Below, in pieces: positions 3,746 to 38,794 of a stretch of DNA of 45,047 nt. A program made the translations under genes and the position numbers. The stretch lies in NCBI GenBank assembly GCA_001794025.1, contig MGJA01000010.1, positions 26,288-71,334 on the forward strand. Reading direction: 5' to 3'. Each line of letters starts with the position of its first letter. Position 1 is the stretch's first letter. A model generated the notes under the pieces. It searched no databases and was not told the DNA's origin. It worked only from the letters and a program-made list of their open reading frames with translations. The DNA comes from Candidatus Yanofskybacteria bacterium RIFCSPHIGHO2_01_FULL_41_21 (GTDB lineage: Bacteria > Patescibacteriota > Minisyncoccia > 2-02-FULL-40-12 > GWA2-44-9).

Positions 3746-6700
3746 TTACTTTTTAATTCCTAAGTAAATCTTTTTATCTGGTCCCAATAAGGATTCCTTA
3801 TACAGGTCGTAGTCGCCGTGTTTCTCTTTTTGTTCAAGCGATTTTAAAACCGTATCTTTTTTAATTTCTTCGGACCATTCGGTGATGGCGGAAATTATTT
3901 CTTTGTCTTCACTATACCAATCAACCATGACAGAATCATCCATCTGGTATTTGGCTTCTTTGCGCATATCTTGAATTTGACGCATCAGTTCTCGCGCATA
4001 ACCTTCGCGAGTTAATTCCGGCGTAAGTTCCCATTCAAAATCCATTTTCGGTAAACTCTCGTCAGGTTTTATGTATTTTATTTTTTTAACATTTAACTCT
4101 TCCCTTATTAAATCTTCCAGATTCCCAAATTCTTCGGTAGATTTAAATATAGAAAGAGGTTGACGAACCTTAATTTGTTTATCCTTTCTCAATTTAAGGC
4201 CAACGGCTATGGCTTCTCTCGCTAAATTCATCCTTAATTCTAATTTATCATCCACATATTTCCTATGAAATTTCGGCCAATCAGTTAAATGAACGGATTC
4301 GGGTTCATTCATTGAAAATTGTAAATTGGTAACTGATAATTGTCGATTGCTTTGCAATCGGTGGTACATATCTTCCGCCATAAAAGGTGTAAATGGAGCA
4401 AGGAGTTTAGATACTTCTATTAATACATTTCTCAATAATGGCAATGCTTCTTTTCGACGACGCGAACGGCGCAACCACCAATTAGATAAATCATCAGTTA
4501 AAAATTGATCAATGGCTCGGCCTGCCGAAGCGACATCATATTTATCCAAATTATCGGTCACGGAAGAAATTGTCCGATGTAGACGAGACATCAGCCATTT
4601 GTCTAATAAGGTAAAAGTCAAAAGCCCTAAGTCATAAGTATCAGAATTATTACTTTTTGCTTCTTCCTTTTTACTTTCTGCGTAGAGTTCATAAAAACGA
4701 ATACAGTTTTGAAGTGTGAAGAAAAAACCTTTCAATTTATCTTCAATCTCCCGAGGGATTACGGCTTTACTTTCCCCAGCCGCAACAGTGGACATAAAAT
4801 ACCAACGAATAACATCCGTACCGTATTTATCCATCAGTTCCATCACGGGCACAAAGTTACCTTTTGATTTAGACATTTTCTGGCCTTTCTCATCTAGGGT
4901 GTGTCCAAGAACTAAAACATTTTTATAAGGAGCACCCCGACCAAGCAAAGTTGAAATACCTAAAAGTGTCCAGAACCAACCACGGGTCTGGTCAACGGCT
5001 TCCACAATAAAATCGGCCGGAAATTGTTTTTTAAAAACATCTTTATTTTCAAACGGATAATGCCATTGAGCAAAGGGCATCGCGCCGGAATCAAACCAGA
5101 CATCAATGAGGTCGGGAATCTTTCTCATTTTTGACTTACACTTTGGACATTTAATGACGACGTCATCAATAAATGGCCGGTGTAAATCCAATTCGCCGTA
5201 TTCATTGCGCGGAATTTTGCGCCATTCCAGTTTACGAATTTCCGCAAGATTAGGAGCAAAATACGGGAAGACATCGGGATTTTTCAATTCGTCTCCGGAA
5301 TATCCATGAGCAATGGCCTGAAAGAAATACATCGGCTGACCATGAGTAACTATCAAAATTTTCTTGTTGCGGTGCTTTGATTCCATATCTTTCATAAAAT
5401 CAGTCACTCGTGTCCTTATTGATTCCGCGCTTTCGGTTCCTTCCGCATACTGCATGGTTCCGGTATCCGATTTACCCTCAAATTCAAGAAGGTATTCCTT
5501 CTCAACTAATCTTTCATCTGTTTCGACTTTATGGTGCAAAACCTGACCCGCTATTTCCGCGGTCTCCTTAGTTCTAAAAAATGGTGAGGCATAAATCGCA
5601 TCAATGCCATCTAGTTTTAAAAGTTCCAATGAACGCTCCACACCCTCTCGACCTTCATCTGTAAGGTGGTAGGTGTCTAAACTAAGTTGTGAATTGACAA
5701 TTGGTTTATCACTACTTTCATTACGAGTCGTCGCTCCATGACGCATTATGTAATAAGTATTTTTAGAACCGAGAGACAGTTTCTCCAGTTCTTTAATAGA
5801 GCCAATGGCGGTTTTGTGGTCACACTGACCGCACTCCCAAATTGGGAGTGGTGTCCCCCAATATCTTTCACGGGATAGTGTCCAGTCCCTTCCTTCTCGC
5901 AACCATCCGCCAAATCGTCCATCTTTAATATGTTCAGGAACCCAATTGACGGTTGCATTATTGGCGAGCAATTCTTTGTTAAGCGCAGATGTTCGTATAA
6001 ACCAAGACGTTTTGGCGTAATACAACAAAGGCGTATTACAACGCCAACAGAACGGATAGTCGTGCTCATAGTCCTCAATTTTTAAAAGTTGATTTCTTTC
6101 CTGAAGTTTTTCAAGAATTAAATCTTCAACGGCCTTGTTCTTTTTTCCGTTCTCAATAATAGCTTTTCCGCCGAGTCCGTCACCCAGAGAATCAATAAAC
6201 TTCCCCTGTTCGGTAACAGTATGAATTTTTGGTAAGTTTAATTTTGTACCAAGAATATAGTCATCTTCACCATACATCACCGCCGTATGAACCACGCCCG
6301 TTCCGTCTGTTGTAGAAACAAAATCTGCTGGATAGACCTTATATGATGTATCGGATTTCAGTTCCGGCACATCAAACAATGGTTCATATTCTAAACCAAC
6401 CAGTTCACTGCCTTTGTAGTTCTTGGCCATTAGCGAATAGCCATTAGCCGACCCAAATACTTTTTCCACCAAATCCTTCGCTAGGATTAATTTTTCTCCA
6501 TCAAGTTCAACGGTCGCGTAATCAATTTCGGGTCCCACCGCTAAAGCAACATTGCCCGGTAACGTCCACGGGGTAGTCGTCCATGCAAGAATATACACCG
6601 GCGAATTTCCAATTTCCAATTTCCAATTTCCAATTTTGGAATGCGGACCTATAACTTTAAATTTAAGGTAGACGGACCTCTCCGTCGTCAGTTTATATCC

Positions 6701-7288
6701 TTGAGAAACCTCATGGGCCGAAAGAGCTGTTCCGCATCGGACACAAAGAGGCACAATCTTGTGGGCCTGATAAAGCAAGTCCTTATCCCAAATCGTCTTA
6801 AGAATATTCCAGACCGATTCCATATATCCCGTTTCGTAGGTAACATACGGATGATCCAGATCCAGCCAAAAACCCATCCGCCGCGTCATGTCTTCCCATT
6901 CTTTGGTATACTTCCAAACACTTTGTCGGGCTTTGCGATTAAACTTAGCAATACCGTATTCTTCAATCTGTTTTTTATTACTAAAACCCAGTTCTTTTTC
7001 AATTTCAATTTCCACGGGTAAACCATGGGTATCCCAACCGGCTTTTCGGAGAACAAAAAAGCCCCGCATGGTTTTATAGCGTCCGTATAAGTCCTTCGGC
7101 AAACGAGTTAAAAAGTGACCGATATGGGGCTTGCCATTGGCGGTGGGCGGACCTTCCCAAAACACAAAACGCTTCCCCTCCCGGCGAAGCTCAAGTGATT
7201 TCTCAAAAATAGCATGATCGTCCCAAAATTTCCGGACCTTATCCTCCGTATTCTTGAAGTCGTACACCAGGTAGTAGAAATCCGACAT
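3746..7288 (-). CDS. ileS: Isoleucyl-tRNA synthetase with inserted histidine-phosphatase domain
   Basis: IleRS charges tRNA-Ile. The 1180-residue product has the class I signatures HIGH (PHIGHFL, His55-His58) and KMSKSKGN (about 802), the CP1 editing region (TTPWTLPGN), and cysteine pairs CVRC, CWRC, CGQC and CPKC. The catalytic core is interrupted at about residues 505-700 by a complete histidine-phosphatase (phosphoglycerate-mutase-like) module: YIMRHGATTR near 513, ASPFFRTKETAE in the middle, and VTHGQPM near 649. Normal IleRS resumes at DLHRPFIDDV and DVWFDSGAM. The insert is in frame, and both RHG and THG histidines are present, so it may be active. Residues 1-8 (MSDFYYLV) come from the leader hairpin; conventional IleRS homology begins near YDFKNTEDKVRKFW. 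Two heptamer-derived segments (GNWKLEIGN and NRQLSVTNLQFS) also sit in the frame. Confidence 0.95.
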   Translation of the reverse strand: MSDFYYLVYDFKNTEDKVRKFWDDHAIFEKSLELRREGKRFVFWEGPPTANGKPHIGHFLTRLPKDLYGRYKTMRGFFVLRKAGWDTHGLPVEIEIEKELGFSNKKQIEEYGIAKFNRKARQSVWKYTKEWEDMTRRMGFWLDLDHPYVTYETGYMESVWNILKTIWDKDLLYQAHKIVPLCVRCGTALSAHEVSQGYKLTTERSVYLKFKVIGPHSKIGNWKLEIGNSPVYILAWTTTPWTLPGNVALAVGPEIDYATVELDGEKLILAKDLVEKVFGSANGYSLMAKNYKGSELVGLEYEPLFDVPELKSDTSYKVYPADFVSTTDGTGVVHTAVMYGEDDYILGTKLNLPKIHTVTEQGKFIDSLGDGLGGKAIIENGKKNKAVEDLILEKLQERNQLLKIEDYEHDYPFCWRCNTPLLYYAKTSWFIRTSALNKELLANNATVNWVPEHIKDGRFGGWLREGRDWTLSRERYWGTPLPIWECGQCDHKTAIGSIKELEKLSLGSKNTYYIMRHGATTRNESSDKPIVNSQLSLDTYHLTDEGREGVERSLELLKLDGIDAIYASPFFRTKETAEIAGQVLHHKVETDERLVEKEYLLEFEGKSDTGTMQYAEGTESAESIRTRVTDFMKDMESKHRNKKILIVTHGQPMYFFQAIAHGYSGDELKNPDVFPYFAPNLAEIRKLEWRKIPRNEYGELDLHRPFIDDVVIKCPKCKSKMRKIPDLIDVWFDSGAMPFAQWHYPFENKDVFKKQFPADFIVEAVDQTRGWFWTLLGISTLLGRGAPYKNVLVLGHTLDEKGQKMSKSKGNFVPVMELMDKYGTDVIRWYFMSTVAAGESKAVIPREIEDKLKGFFFTLQNCIRFYELYAESKKEEAKSNNSDTYDLGLLTFTLLDKWLMSRLHRTISSVTDNLDKYDVASAGRAIDQFLTDDLSNWWLRRSRRRKEALPLLRNVLIEVSKLLAPFTPFMAEDMYHRLQSNRQLSVTNLQFSMNEPESVHLTDWPKFHRKYVDDKLELRMNLAREAIAVGLKLRKDKQIKVRQPLSIFKSTEEFGNLEDLIREELNVKKIKYIKPDESLPKMDFEWELTPELTREGYARELMRQIQDMRKEAKYQMDDSVMVDWYSEDKEIISAITEWSEEIKKDTVLKSLEQKEKHGDYDLYKESLLGPDKKIYLGIKK
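4314..4348 (-). repeat. Degenerate heptamer array inside ileS
   Basis: Five consecutive heptamers are visible on the plus strand: GAAAATT, GTAAATT, GGTAACT, GATAATT, GTCGATT. They encode part of the C-terminal region of IleRS (RQLSVTNLQF) without breaking the frame, although 7 is not a multiple of 3. Confidence 0.7.
6427..6450 (-). repeat. GCCATTA/GCGAATA heptamer array inside ileS
   Basis: On the plus strand it reads GCCATTA-GCGAATA-GCCATTA-GCC. It is the second heptamer type (GNNATTA) and encodes GYSLMA in a predicted surface segment of the IleRS editing region. Confidence 0.65.
6604..6638 (-). repeat. Perfect (GGAAATT)4 heptamer array inside ileS
   Basis: Four exact copies of AATTTCC (GGAAATT on the coding strand) are followed by a degenerate fifth. 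Translation gives IGNWKLEIGN, an insertion just before PVYILAWTTTPW in the editing domain. It is the cleanest example of the heptamer type in this gene. Confidence 0.9.
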
Positions 7289-13164: not shown

Positions 13165-13217
13165 TGTTAGTTTTTCGCTAATGGCTAAGTTCTAATCGCT
13201 AATTACTATCTAATGGC
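13165..13217 (+). repeat. Heptamer array running into the smpB start
   Basis: TAATGGC-TAAGTTC-TAATCGC-TAATTAC precede TATC and another TAATGGC that contains the smpB ATG. These are reverse complements of the GNNATTA type heptamers, and the start codon is embedded in one unit. Confidence 0.7.
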
Positions 13218-15980: not shown

Positions 15981-16553
15981 ATGTTGTATTTTCCAGATAG
16001 ACATGATATTATAAACTCCGATAGAAATTTCAACACGTTGGTAAAACATCTTCAACTCAACAATCAAATTCGAGCCCTTCAAGTTCAAGTAATTGATTCT
16101 GAAGGTAAACAGCTGGGCGTTATGACCATCCAGAAAGCGCTTCAGATGGCTCGAGATAGTGATTTAGACCTTGTTGAAGTTGGACCAAATGCCGTTCCTC
16201 CAATTACAAAAATAATGGACTACGGCAAGTATATTTACCAGAAAGAACGTCAGGAAAAGAAAACCGGCGGTGCTAAAAAACAGCGCGTTGAACTGAAAAC
16301 AGTGAGAGTTGGTTTCAAGACCGGCGCTCACGATATGGCCTTCAAGGCAAAAAAGGCCCTTGAATTTTTAGAAGAGGGCCATATTTTAAAGTTAGAGTTA
16401 ACCCTCCGTGGACGAGAAAAAGCCCTCGCTCCGATGGGGAAGGAAAAACTTCTCCAATTCCTCACAAACATCACCGTCCCCTATACTATACAGGAACAAA
16501 TCAAACGAGGGCCCTACGGTTGGGTAATTACTATAAAAAAAGATATTAAATAG
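15981..16553 (+). CDS. infC: Translation initiation factor IF-3
   Basis: IF-3 monitors start codon selection on the 30S subunit. The product contains the N-domain LNNQIRALQVQVIDSEGKQLGVMTIQKAL, the linker KERQEKKTGG and the C-domain VRVGFKTGAHDMAFKAKKALEFLEEGHILKLELTLRGREK. The start is uncertain. ATG 15981 adds 19 atypical residues, while TTG 16038 (VKHLQLNNQIR) fits the family better. A candidate promoter (TTGTAT, 17 nt, TATTAT) lies between the two. Non-AUG starts are a known feature of infC autoregulation. It heads the usual infC-rpmI-rplT cluster. Confidence 0.93.
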   Translation: MLYFPDRHDIINSDRNFNTLVKHLQLNNQIRALQVQVIDSEGKQLGVMTIQKALQMARDSDLDLVEVGPNAVPPITKIMDYGKYIYQKERQEKKTGGAKKQRVELKTVRVGFKTGAHDMAFKAKKALEFLEEGHILKLELTLRGREKALAPMGKEKLLQFLTNITVPYTIQEQIKRGPYGWVITIKKDIK

Positions 16554-16570
16554 CTCCCCTTTCCAACATT

Positions 16571-16598
16571 GAAAATTGGAAATTGATAACTGAAAATT
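16571..16598 (+). repeat. Heptamer array between infC and rpmI
   Basis: GAAAATT-GGAAATT-GATAACT-GAAAATT, four in-register units of the GNNAAYT type. It fills most of the gap and ends 8 nt before the rpmI ATG. Confidence 0.75.
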
Positions 16599-17590: not shown

Positions 17591-18721
<1,131 letters not shown>

Positions 18722-30341: not shown

Positions 30342-30440
30342 AATTTACAATTTACTAATTTACAATTTTCAGTAAATGTATCAATTGATCAATGAATCAT
30401 TGAAAATTTATTGTAAATTGAAAACTGAAAATTGATTATT
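30342..30440. repeat. Opposed heptamer arrays between SBP and methyltransferase genes
   Basis: The right half on the plus strand reads GTAAATT-GAAAACT-GAAAATT-GATTATT (30413-30440). The left half holds GTAAATT/GAAAATT units on the opposite strand (30342-30378). The two can pair, giving a large AT-rich hairpin. The repeat ends inside the methyltransferase stop codon. Confidence 0.7.
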
Positions 30441-36841: not shown

Positions 36842-38659
36842 ATGAAATCCTACATTCGTTATTTTTTAATTGTTTTTGGAATCTTAATGATCACAGCTGG
36901 AATTGCTGCTTTCTTTGATTCTTCTTTTAAGAGTCCCCCCGTTATCGCTCTATCTGAATTAGTTACTAAAATCAATGCCGGTGATATTAAAGAAATTAAC
37001 GTTACGGGTGACACTATTAAAATCATTGCCACCAATGGTGACCAATCTTTAACCAAAAAAGAGACGGCTATTTCTGCGTTTGAAACACTCATCAATCTTG
37101 GAGCTGACAAGGCCAAACTTTCAGCGATAAAAATTCAAATCCAAGAGCCGTCGGGTTTTGAATCCATTGTCTCCGGTCTTATTCCAATCGTCCTTCCGTT
37201 TCTTTTTATCTGGCTAATTTTCTGGTTTATGTTCCGTCAGGCCCAGAAGGGCTCAGGTCAGGCAATGTCTTTTGGGAAATCAAAGGCCCAACTCGCCGAT
37301 ACTTCCGGTGGTAGCCGAAAACCGGTAACATTTGCCGATGTCGCAGGACTCATTGAAGCCAAAGCTGAAGTGTCCGAAATAGTTGAATTCCTAAAAGATC
37401 CAAAGAAATTCCAAAAACTCGGCGCCCGAATTCCCCGTGGTGTTTTGTTGGTCGGTTCACCGGGTACCGGCAAGACCCTCCTTGCCCGAGCGGTTGCCAA
37501 TGAGGCCCATGTCCCCTTTTATTATGTCTCGGGTTCTGAATTCGTAGAAATGTTTGTCGGGGTCGGCGCCAATCGTGTTCGTGACACCTTTGAACTCGCC
37601 AAGAAGACAGCTCCCTCTATTATCTTCATTGATGAAATTGATGCCGTCGGTCGTCACCGTGGAGCCGGTCTTGGTGGTGGTCATGATGAACGCGAACAAA
37701 CTCTCAACCAAATCTTGGTGGAGATGGACGGTTTTGATACTAATAATGCCGTCATTGTAATGGGCGCCACAAATCGTCCTGACATTCTTGATCCGGCCCT
37801 ACTCCGTCCCGGTCGTTTTGACCGACGTGTAATTCTTGATGAACCATCGCTCAAAGACCGCGAGGCGATCTTAAAAATTCATGCTATGGACAAACCCCTC
37901 GCCAAAGATGTTAATCTTGTTCCCGTTGCCGAACGCACCGTGGGATTTTCCGGCGCGGAACTGGCCAATCTGTTAAATGAAGCCGCTATCTTGGCCGCCC
38001 GATCTGATCAAAAAGAAATTACCCAAGACAATATCCTGGAAGCAATTGAAAAGGTCATCCTTGGTCCGGAACGACGCAGTCATATTTTAACCAAAAAAGA
38101 AAAAGAGATTACCGCCTATCACGAAGCCGGCCATGCTTTGGTGGCATCATCATTACCTCACTCCGATAAAGTCCACAAGGTCTCCATTGTTTCTCGCGGT
38201 CGGGCTGGTGGCTTTACTATGAAAGTGCCCAGCGAAGATAAATATCTTAAATCCAAACCGGAATTTGAATCGGAACTGGCGGTTCTTTTGGCCGGTTACG
38301 CTGCCGAAAAATTAATCTTTAAACAAGTAACAACCGGTGCTTCCAATGATTTGAAAGTCGCCTCCGAACTCGCCCGCCGAATGATTACCCAATACGGCAT
38401 GTCCGACACCCTTGGCCCCGTCTCCTTTCACGAAAAAGACGACCTAGTGTTTTTAGGCAAAGATCTTTCTTCGGCTAAAAGTTATTCCGAAACAATCGCC
38501 TATCAGATAGATACAGAGATAAAGAAATTTGTCTCTAAGGGTCTTGCCTCCGCCAAAAAAATATTGTCCCAACACATTGATAAACTCAATCTCATCGCCA
38601 AAGAACTCATCAAAAAAGAAACTCTGGAACAAAAAGAGTTCTACGCCCTCGTTAGGTAG
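36842..38659 (+). CDS. ftsH: ATP-dependent zinc metalloprotease FtsH
   Basis: FtsH degrades membrane and regulatory proteins. The 605-residue product has two membrane helices (about 6-24 and 116-136) around an extracytoplasmic domain. The AAA+ domain has Walker A GSPGTGKT (about 204-211), Walker B IIFIDEID (about 260) and the arginine-finger region RPGRFDRR. The zinc protease motif is HEAGH (about 427-431). It ends with a peptidase domain and has no long tail. Its leader resembles that of hsp20. The stop codon starts a heptamer array. Confidence 0.95.
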
Positions 38660-38693
38660 CGAATAGCCAATAGCGGGTAGTGATTAGAACTTA
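38659..38693 (+). repeat. Heptamer array between ftsH and tRNA-Ile
   Basis: GCGAATA-GCCAATA-GCGGGTA-GTGATTA-GAACTTA, five in-register units that begin in the ftsH stop codon. They match the type in ileS (6427) and before smpB. Confidence 0.75.
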
Positions 38694-38722: not shown

Positions 38723-38794
38723 GGGCGTGTAGCTCAGTGGTAGAGCACGTCACTTATAATGACGCGGTCGATGGTTCGATCCCATCCACGCCCA
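38723..38794 (+). tRNA. tRNA-Ile with anticodon UAU
   Basis: Acceptor GGGCGTG/CACGCCC, D-arm GCTC-AGTGGTA-GAGC, anticodon arm CGTCA-CTTATAA-TGACG (anticodon TAT), variable CGGTC, T-arm GATGG-TTCGATC-CCATC, discriminator A. CCA is not encoded. It reads AUA codons directly. Confidence 0.93.

Follow-up and report, generated by a model that had tools for sequence, protein, structure and literature searches.

The genome of Candidatus Yanofskybacteria bacterium RIFCSPHIGHO2_01_FULL_41_21 contains short tandem arrays of degenerate 7-nt units, near-fixed in size at four units, which lie in the spacers of core operons, often as inverted pairs, and in frame within essential genes. The arrays may best be understood as class-wide (Paceibacterota-like) small fold-back repeats that arise as blocks of about 30 nt through replication template switching and survive where they are harmless, a reading that is favoured here with slightly less than even confidence.

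Sequence data and scoring

The host is a parasite-like, tiny bacterium (Patescibacteria). Its genome (G000) is a draft of 704 kb, 97% complete, and the stretch of 45,047 nt analysed here, called the window, is part of it. G001, G002 and G003 are sister species, and the best match of the TsaD protein is from a Candidatus Paceibacterota genome (68% identity). Lag-7 scoring covered 385 of the 704 kb, and searches with the GRWAAYT pattern were genome-wide. The lag-7 background was taken from order-3 shuffles, a loose and a stricter threshold were used, and lags 4-12 were compared at each site. Gene calls are simple ORFs; the genes that carry arrays were named by Pfam, except for the glycosyltransferases, which were named by eye. 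All genomes used are draft assemblies, one per species, and the class-wide counts (95 genomes) cover the GRWAAYT family alone. Three sets of operon spacers, rplB-rpsS-rplV, hrcA-grpE-dnaK and nusG-rplK, were compared in 30 genomes each; hrcA, rplB and nusG were named by eye and the other operon genes by Pfam.

Heptanucleotide arrays of the window

The lag-7 signal of the window exceeded that of shuffled sequence, contrary to the outcome that would have refuted the original prediction: the loose threshold gave 13 segments against 2.4, and the stricter threshold left 6 against 0.3. In the 385-kb sample 64 lag-7 arrays were found for 3.1 expected from the order-3 shuffles, and the stricter scoring gave 45 segments against none. 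The strongest lags of this sample are 7 and its harmonic 14, with a weak rise at lags 6, 8 and 9. A chance origin of the arrays is ruled out by the shuffles together with the reversed-pattern control described below.

The original prediction listed ten arrays of strict 7-nt period. All ten were read in the sequence itself. Seven is the top period at nine of these ten sites, but strictness applies to three of them, because just 6604, 17837 and 18030 are near-perfect (lag-7 scores 26, 26 and 25). Degenerate arrays score 10 (4314 and 16571), 9 (2514), 8.5 (38659), 8 (30342, where lag 7 is level with lag 8) and 7.5 (6427). The tenth site, 13165, fails; its score of 5 is not over background, and what is present is a CTAA-every-7 pattern visible by eye. 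Five arrays had been placed in the coding frames of ileS and tsaD, and there they are, encoding the peptides IGNWKLEIGN and TGNWKLETGN as claimed. Further weak lag-7 stretches that were absent from the earlier list occur in ileS at 4610-4677 (AAGTCAT-like; a Lys/Glu-rich run). The features of the window are listed below.

2514-2543: intergenic array AGTTTCT AGTTTAC AGTTTCT AGTTTAC, just past the ORF 1798-2508; lag-7 score 9
3746-7288, minus strand: ileS (Pfam tRNA-synt_1), 1180 aa, carrying three arrays and a histidine-phosphatase domain
4311-4342, plus strand: ileS array GAAAATT GTAAATT GGTAACT GATAATT, in frame, antisense to the gene; from lag-7 scoring and sister comparison
6423-6449: ileS array of the GCTAATG/GCTATTC family, in frame; from lag-7 scoring and the loops of relatives
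6604-6636, minus strand: near-perfect (GGAAATT)4 in ileS, sense, peptide IGNWKLEIGN; +39 nt versus three sister species
13175-13203: weak CTAA-every-7-nt pattern, intergenic; lag-7 score not over background
16549-16598, plus strand: single-arm intergenic element, core TAGCTCCCCTTTCCAACATT plus (GRWAAYT)4, ending 8 nt upstream of the ATG of rpmI (L35)
17591-18721, plus strand: tsaD (PF00814), 376 aa, carrying two arrays
17832-17864, plus strand: tsaD loop 1, perfect (GGAAACT)4 with a partial 5' unit, peptide TGNWKLETGN; +18 nt versus sisters
18004-18029: perfect fold-back CTCCAATTGG-TT/AA-CCAATTGGAG in tsaD, adjoining the 18030 array
18030-18061, minus strand: tsaD loop 2, perfect (AAATTCC)4.6; +24 nt versus G001 and G003
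30342-30435, minus strand: two-armed fold-back element with inverted heptad arrays (30342-30371 and 30410-30435) flanking a spacer, 3 nt upstream of a GTG; belongs to the dispersed family of 82-nt elements
38657-38685: intergenic array of the GCGAATA family, overlapping a stop codon (ORF ends at 38659; tRNA at 38723)

Unit families and array size

The commonest unit family is GRWAAYT (GGAAATT, GAAAATT, GGAAACT, GATAATT and others). The pattern (GRWAAYT)x3 has 25 matches in the whole genome and its reversed-pattern control has none; GRWAAYT as such is more than 10 times commoner than the reversed control. Two unit types, GNNAAYT and GNNATTA, had been described initially, but GNNATTA is just one among several further families. 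GCGAATA, AGGAATT/AGAACTT and GCTAATG are such families. In the intergenic GRWAAYT units (n=45) positions 1, 4, 5 and 7 are constant and positions 2, 3 and 6 are variable, a pattern that is suggestive only, because the choice of phase partly used those positions.

An exact search of 95 genomes of the class gave 282, 117 and 3 matches to (GRWAAYT)x3, x4 and x5, respectively. Since an array of n units yields n-2, n-3 and n-4 matches to these patterns, the counts correspond to about 51 arrays of three units, 111 of four and 3 of five, with none longer, and copy-number variability of the slippage type is not seen among them (one genome per species). Free slippage would predict a falling, open-ended size distribution, unlike this near-fixed size. 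The flanks of the arrays stand in constant phase, and exactly four units come after a short lead-in such as TT or AYT. Few arrays are present in the relatives G003-G005, and no GRWAAYT array was found in 1.33 Mb of Proteobacterial control loci. The operon spacers of G008, G015, G017 and G023 contain similar fold-backs with units of about 8-9 nt (CGAATGACC, GTTCATAAA), so that 7 is the dominant but not the exclusive period.

Intergenic elements and their dispersal

In the 385-kb sample 31 of 65 arrays lie within ORFs, as against an ORF coverage of 88% of the sequence, and the arrays are thus enriched in spacers. Intergenic arrays often form two inverted arms with a spacer between them, giving fold-backs of 60-140 nt. 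An 82-nt two-armed element, its asymmetric spacer TAGCTCAATTCTCAAAC included, is present at 90-95% identity upstream of rpsG, grpE, dnaK and rplK, and positions 30342-30435 of the window, where one arm only had been noticed before, are a diverged copy of it. Single-arm forms with the core of this element are located upstream of rpmI (16549-16598) and of another short ORF elsewhere. The elements of G000 end 3-14 nt upstream of start codons, and elements related to them, with the inner palindrome AATTTTCAAAC..GTTTGAAAATT in common, are found throughout the class.

The spacers of the three operons measure a few nt in some species and hold 60-140-nt fold-backs in others, the arms being built of heptamers that are specific to the species (G009 ATAGGAA, G011 ATCCATA, G013 GTTCATT, G027 CTTATAG, G029 AACCTGT). 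Most sites of the 82-nt element are short or array-free in the same-genus species G001 and G003, and other genomes carry different heptad elements there. Period 7 was the best period in 34 of the 75 spacers that reach 35 nt or more in the three operons, compared with 0.7 per shuffle set; period 8 was best in 7 and period 9 in 5. About 73% of the long spacers fold far better than shuffles, with or without heptads (mean z about -3.6 and -3.8). Hairpin folding was therefore rejected as a mark of heptad elements alone, since long spacers lacking heptads fold equally well.

Other dispersed elements were noticed in these genomes. A double-hairpin element of the form GTCCCGATT-[hairpin]-AATCGAGGATCCTCGATT-[hairpin]-AATCGGGAC, in which the hairpins are variable but self-complementary, has 18 and 24 matches in the two genomes G008 and G026 (L215-L244), and is also found 3' of rplK in G000 (L335); four of the G008 copies sit within AATTTCC arrays, two of these in tsaD and ileS. 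An element of about 105 nt that is not heptad-based, GTTTTTGTCCnAGAGCGAAGCGATTGGTAACAAAAAGTTAC..GATTGCAACCACTCA..TTCGCGGGCAATC, is conserved in two genera in the grpE-dnaK spacer (L314 in G002, L311 in G009), and a part similar to it lies upstream of rplK in G002 (L337). An Rfam search of the window returned the tmRNA and tRNAs only; with no match for the repeat elements there, identity with a known RNA family was discarded.

Arrays within essential genes

Besides ileS and tsaD, the genes of the genome that carry arrays include thrS, lepA, rplC, tpiA, mltG (YceG), a SpoU methylase and glycosyltransferases. Relative to the same-genus sisters, the net gains of the in-gene arrays are +39, +18, +24, +9 and +42 nt, all of which are multiples of three and one a multiple of seven. 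Absence from sister genes had been proposed as a check: four of the five in-gene arrays are missing from at least two of the three sisters, and one sister shares the fifth. With the sisters sharing about 75-80% protein identity, the ancestral loop states can be given only approximately.

Units turn over at the same sites. The ileS array at 4311 has four units in G001 as well, the units having diverged, and is missing (-42 nt) from G002 and G003. The ileS loop at 6423-6449 contains different heptamers in about ten relatives, tsaD loop 1 (17832-17864) contains other heptamers in G025 and G013, and G002 has a GAATTAC array at the site of tsaD loop 2 (18030-18061). Taken over the two TsaD and three IleS loops, the heptamers differ by species and some species have no arrays. 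Alignment with the solved structures of TsaD and IleS puts gaps at the array-bearing loops. In several species the unit of one ileS site is similar to the native codons that flank it, with AAATTCA beside AAATTCAAGG and AGCTACA beside AGCTACAAGG; judged from these letters, seeding of the unit from local native codons is plausible at ileS site 2.

Among 43 four-unit arrays from relatives, a set chosen to be mostly homogeneous, 35 sit in frames that stay open for 130 codons or more. The (GGAAATT)4 arrays, which are stop-free on both strands, show no orientation preference in open frames (8 sense, 9 antisense). All 16 of the (GAAAATT)4 arrays, with TGA in one forward frame and stop-free only in reverse, are antisense, as coding requires. 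From the orientations of these two units, the array-making process appears to take no account of the gene, with the gene then acting as a filter on its products. Selection for the encoded peptide was ruled out, the orientation of the unit that is stop-free both ways being mixed.

Adjoining loop 2 of tsaD, positions 18004-18029, which had gone unnoticed before, are a perfect inverted copy of the flanking codons for SNWL; such a copy is found in tsaD of many relatives. The two arms of this fold-back change together between species, and it is a candidate for template-switch repair within an essential gene. The catalytic core of IleS is split in two by residues 513-673, an inserted domain of the histidine-phosphatase type (PF00300). 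This long form of IleS is shared by most relatives, and the matches in G012, G036, G054 and G056 skip residues 505-690 approximately; a literature search on this insert returned nothing.

Origin of the arrays

According to the template-switching account, the unit of gain would be a block of about 30 nt, made up of a short lead-in and four 7-nt repeats and present either singly or as two inverted arms with a spacer. A replication or repair error in which the nascent strand repeatedly moves back by 7 nt and primes anew, all within one event, would generate the array. Fold-back template switching would copy it into an inverted partner, arms and units staying alike, and some complete elements would then be copied to unlinked loci. 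Arrays would persist only where they are harmless, in short core-operon spacers and in in-frame protein loops, and neither a dedicated enzyme nor a function would lie behind them. Template switching during replication creates, maintains and repairs hairpins in single events (PMC8794818), and the tsaD fold-back, which adjoins an array and whose arms co-change between species, fits such a process. Further support comes from the near-fixed size with its constant flank phase, the dispersed 82-nt family, the sites that are empty in sisters, the fold-back spacers of period 7, the in-gene gains that are multiples of three, the orientations of the two units and the lack of a Y1 transposase gene in array-rich G000. 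Some observations speak against it. The units are not arbitrary, as seen from the excess over the reversed control and from the constant positions, and this looks like recognition or like a few master copies; and the dispersal of a whole 82-nt element is easier to picture with a transposase.

A transposase acting in trans on non-autonomous (MITE/REP-like) mobile elements, with the solitary in-gene arrays as half elements (compare the Rickettsia palindromic elements), would explain the dispersed near-identical copies, the empty orthologous sites, the in-frame insertions in core genes and the class-wide similarity of the inner sequence AATTTTCAAAC..GTTTGAAAATT. This explanation is nevertheless unlikely. 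Each of the unrelated unit sequences would require its own recognition, and G000, which has the highest (GRWAAYT)x3 count, has no Y1_Tnp gene. The Y1 transposase PF01797 is absent from G000 and from the array-rich genomes G079, G080, G034, G052 and G088, and on the strength of these six genomes mobilisation by a RAYT/Y1 transposase was rejected. The flanks of ten G000 elements showed no significant duplication, the mean longest shared string being 3.9 versus 3.6 for mismatched flanks (permutation p 0.16). One G008 element lies between two copies of CAATTTC, but other copies are without such flanks, and 7-bp target-site duplications were not favoured as the origin of the heptads.

Replication slippage had been suggested at the outset. 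Ordinary slipped-strand growth of period-7 microsatellites (a polymerase contact of about 7 nt), a mechanism put forward for heptanucleotide repeats of many bacteria and here combined with selection for +21 nt to keep the frame, is improbable, even though in many bacterial genomes heptamers are reported to outnumber every other class of long SSR (Mrazek 2007, via PMC4679880 and PMC4692102), one unit plus three is the smallest in-frame growth, and the unit is like the flanking native codons at one ileS site. Plain slippage is not supported as a cause that would suffice by itself: the size is cut off at four units, most insert lengths are not divisible by seven, and growth by one unit would shift the reading frame of essential single-copy genes (thrS, lepA, rplC, tpiA, mltG, ileS, tsaD). 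The cut-off is also present outside genes, where the frame is irrelevant; the homologous array of G000 and G001 kept its unit number while the units diverged; and inverted pairing and copying of the 82-nt element are not slippage. The evidence favours block gain with fold-back copying over stepwise slippage.

Functional sites, at which a putative protein would bind unspaced heptads cooperatively, either in DNA or in RNA just before start codons, would suit the constant positions 1, 4, 5 and 7 beside the free positions 2, 3 and 6, the modal size of four units, the location 3-14 nt upstream of start codons in G000 and the precedent of a four-heptad requirement (PMC9499535), but they are quite improbable given that the same spacers are empty in close relatives, many arrays lie within essential reading frames, the unit at one site differs between species and the neighbouring genes share no function beyond being core genes. 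Since the same anatomy is found in several unit families, a single binding motif was discarded as an explanation of all arrays. The data speak neither for nor against a helical-phase protein-binding site, the other suggestion made at the outset; proteins on unspaced 7-bp repeats have a real precedent in omega/ParB of pSM19035 (PMC9499535).

A more far-reaching interpretation, which we consider somewhat unlikely, is that these form an undescribed class of self-propagating fold-back repeats in Paceibacterota-like Patescibacteria, with a near-fixed four-heptad block of variable sequence as the replicating unit and no recognised transposase, adding new peptide loops to essential proteins at recurrent sites; they would then depend either on a dedicated factor that recognises heptads or on a novel way of copying templates.

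Comparison with known heptanucleotide repeats

The parallel with heptamer repeats of other bacteria that was drawn in the original prediction is right, the closest being the Xanthomonas/Nostoc repeats and the TAACTGA repeats of Beggiatoaceae. The GGGAATC repeats of Xanthomonas (GGGGATT in Nostoc), which are the closest known case, occupy about 180 dispersed sites, the majority with four units; the consensus GGGANTN has fixed and free positions, their position is steadier than that of other SSRs, and in 70-75 cases two close arrays are inverted and convergent (PMC4692102). Period 7, dispersal, the four-unit mode and the convergent inverted pairs are common to both systems. The Xanthomonas arrays are G-rich, with G-quadruplex potential, and have 2-26 units, whereas those described here are AT-rich and very rarely exceed four units, belong to several unit families per genome, lie in reading frames (core genes included) in about half of the sampled cases, and include an element copied between operons. 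GRWAAYT, with at most two adjacent G, does not match a GGGANTN unit with G-quadruplex potential.

The TAACTGA direct repeats occur in Beggiatoaceae, some Cyanobacteria and Bacteroidetes, mostly right upstream of start codons; unsplit sets of 2, 3, 4, 5 and 6 units number 68, 40, 19, 2 and 1, about 10 of 170 sets lie within ORFs, and a role at the RNA level has been suggested (PMC4679880). Rotated, TAACTGA reads GATAACT, which belongs to GRWAAYT and is present here as single units within mixed arrays. Both repeats are dispersed, are placed before start codons and are intermixed with related heptamers; in TAACTGA, however, doublets are commonest and no fold-back element has been described, whereas four units dominate here.

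The palindromic elements of Rickettsia place a palindromic sequence in frame in many protein genes. The present arrays, compared with them by description, are alike in being in-frame palindromic inserts in protein genes. Heptad arms are not known from the Rickettsia elements. The cyanobacterial STRR heptamers and the long SSRs of bacteria (Mrazek 2007, as represented in the papers citing it) are likewise heptanucleotide arrays, mostly intergenic. As in bacterial heptanucleotide SSRs and STRR-like repeats, tandem 7-nt units are present here far above chance at many loci. The ribbon-helix-helix protein omega/ParB of pSM19035 binds 7-bp repeats that follow one another without spacing, in direct or inverted orientation, and at least four contiguous copies are needed for full activity (PMC9499535). 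Its parS heptads, WATCACW, serve as plasmid centromere and operator. In the literature searched, no description was found of a near-fixed four-unit size across a class, of presence in frame in essential genes on this scale or of unit replacement at the same site. Similar repeats are known elsewhere, but the near-fixed size and same-site turnover are unusual.

Biological significance

The arrays provide a natural experiment, in which one spacer or loop is empty in one species and filled elsewhere by different heptamers in arrays of equal period and similar size. The question of why bacterial heptanucleotide repeats have a period of 7 thereby becomes directly testable over many genomes, and tandem repeats are linked with hairpin formation. 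For annotation, a hairpin between cistrons of these genomes may represent the remains of a repeat rather than a terminator or riboswitch. The arrays also show how essential proteins of reduced genomes, IleS, TsaD, ThrS and LepA among them, acquire new peptide segments.
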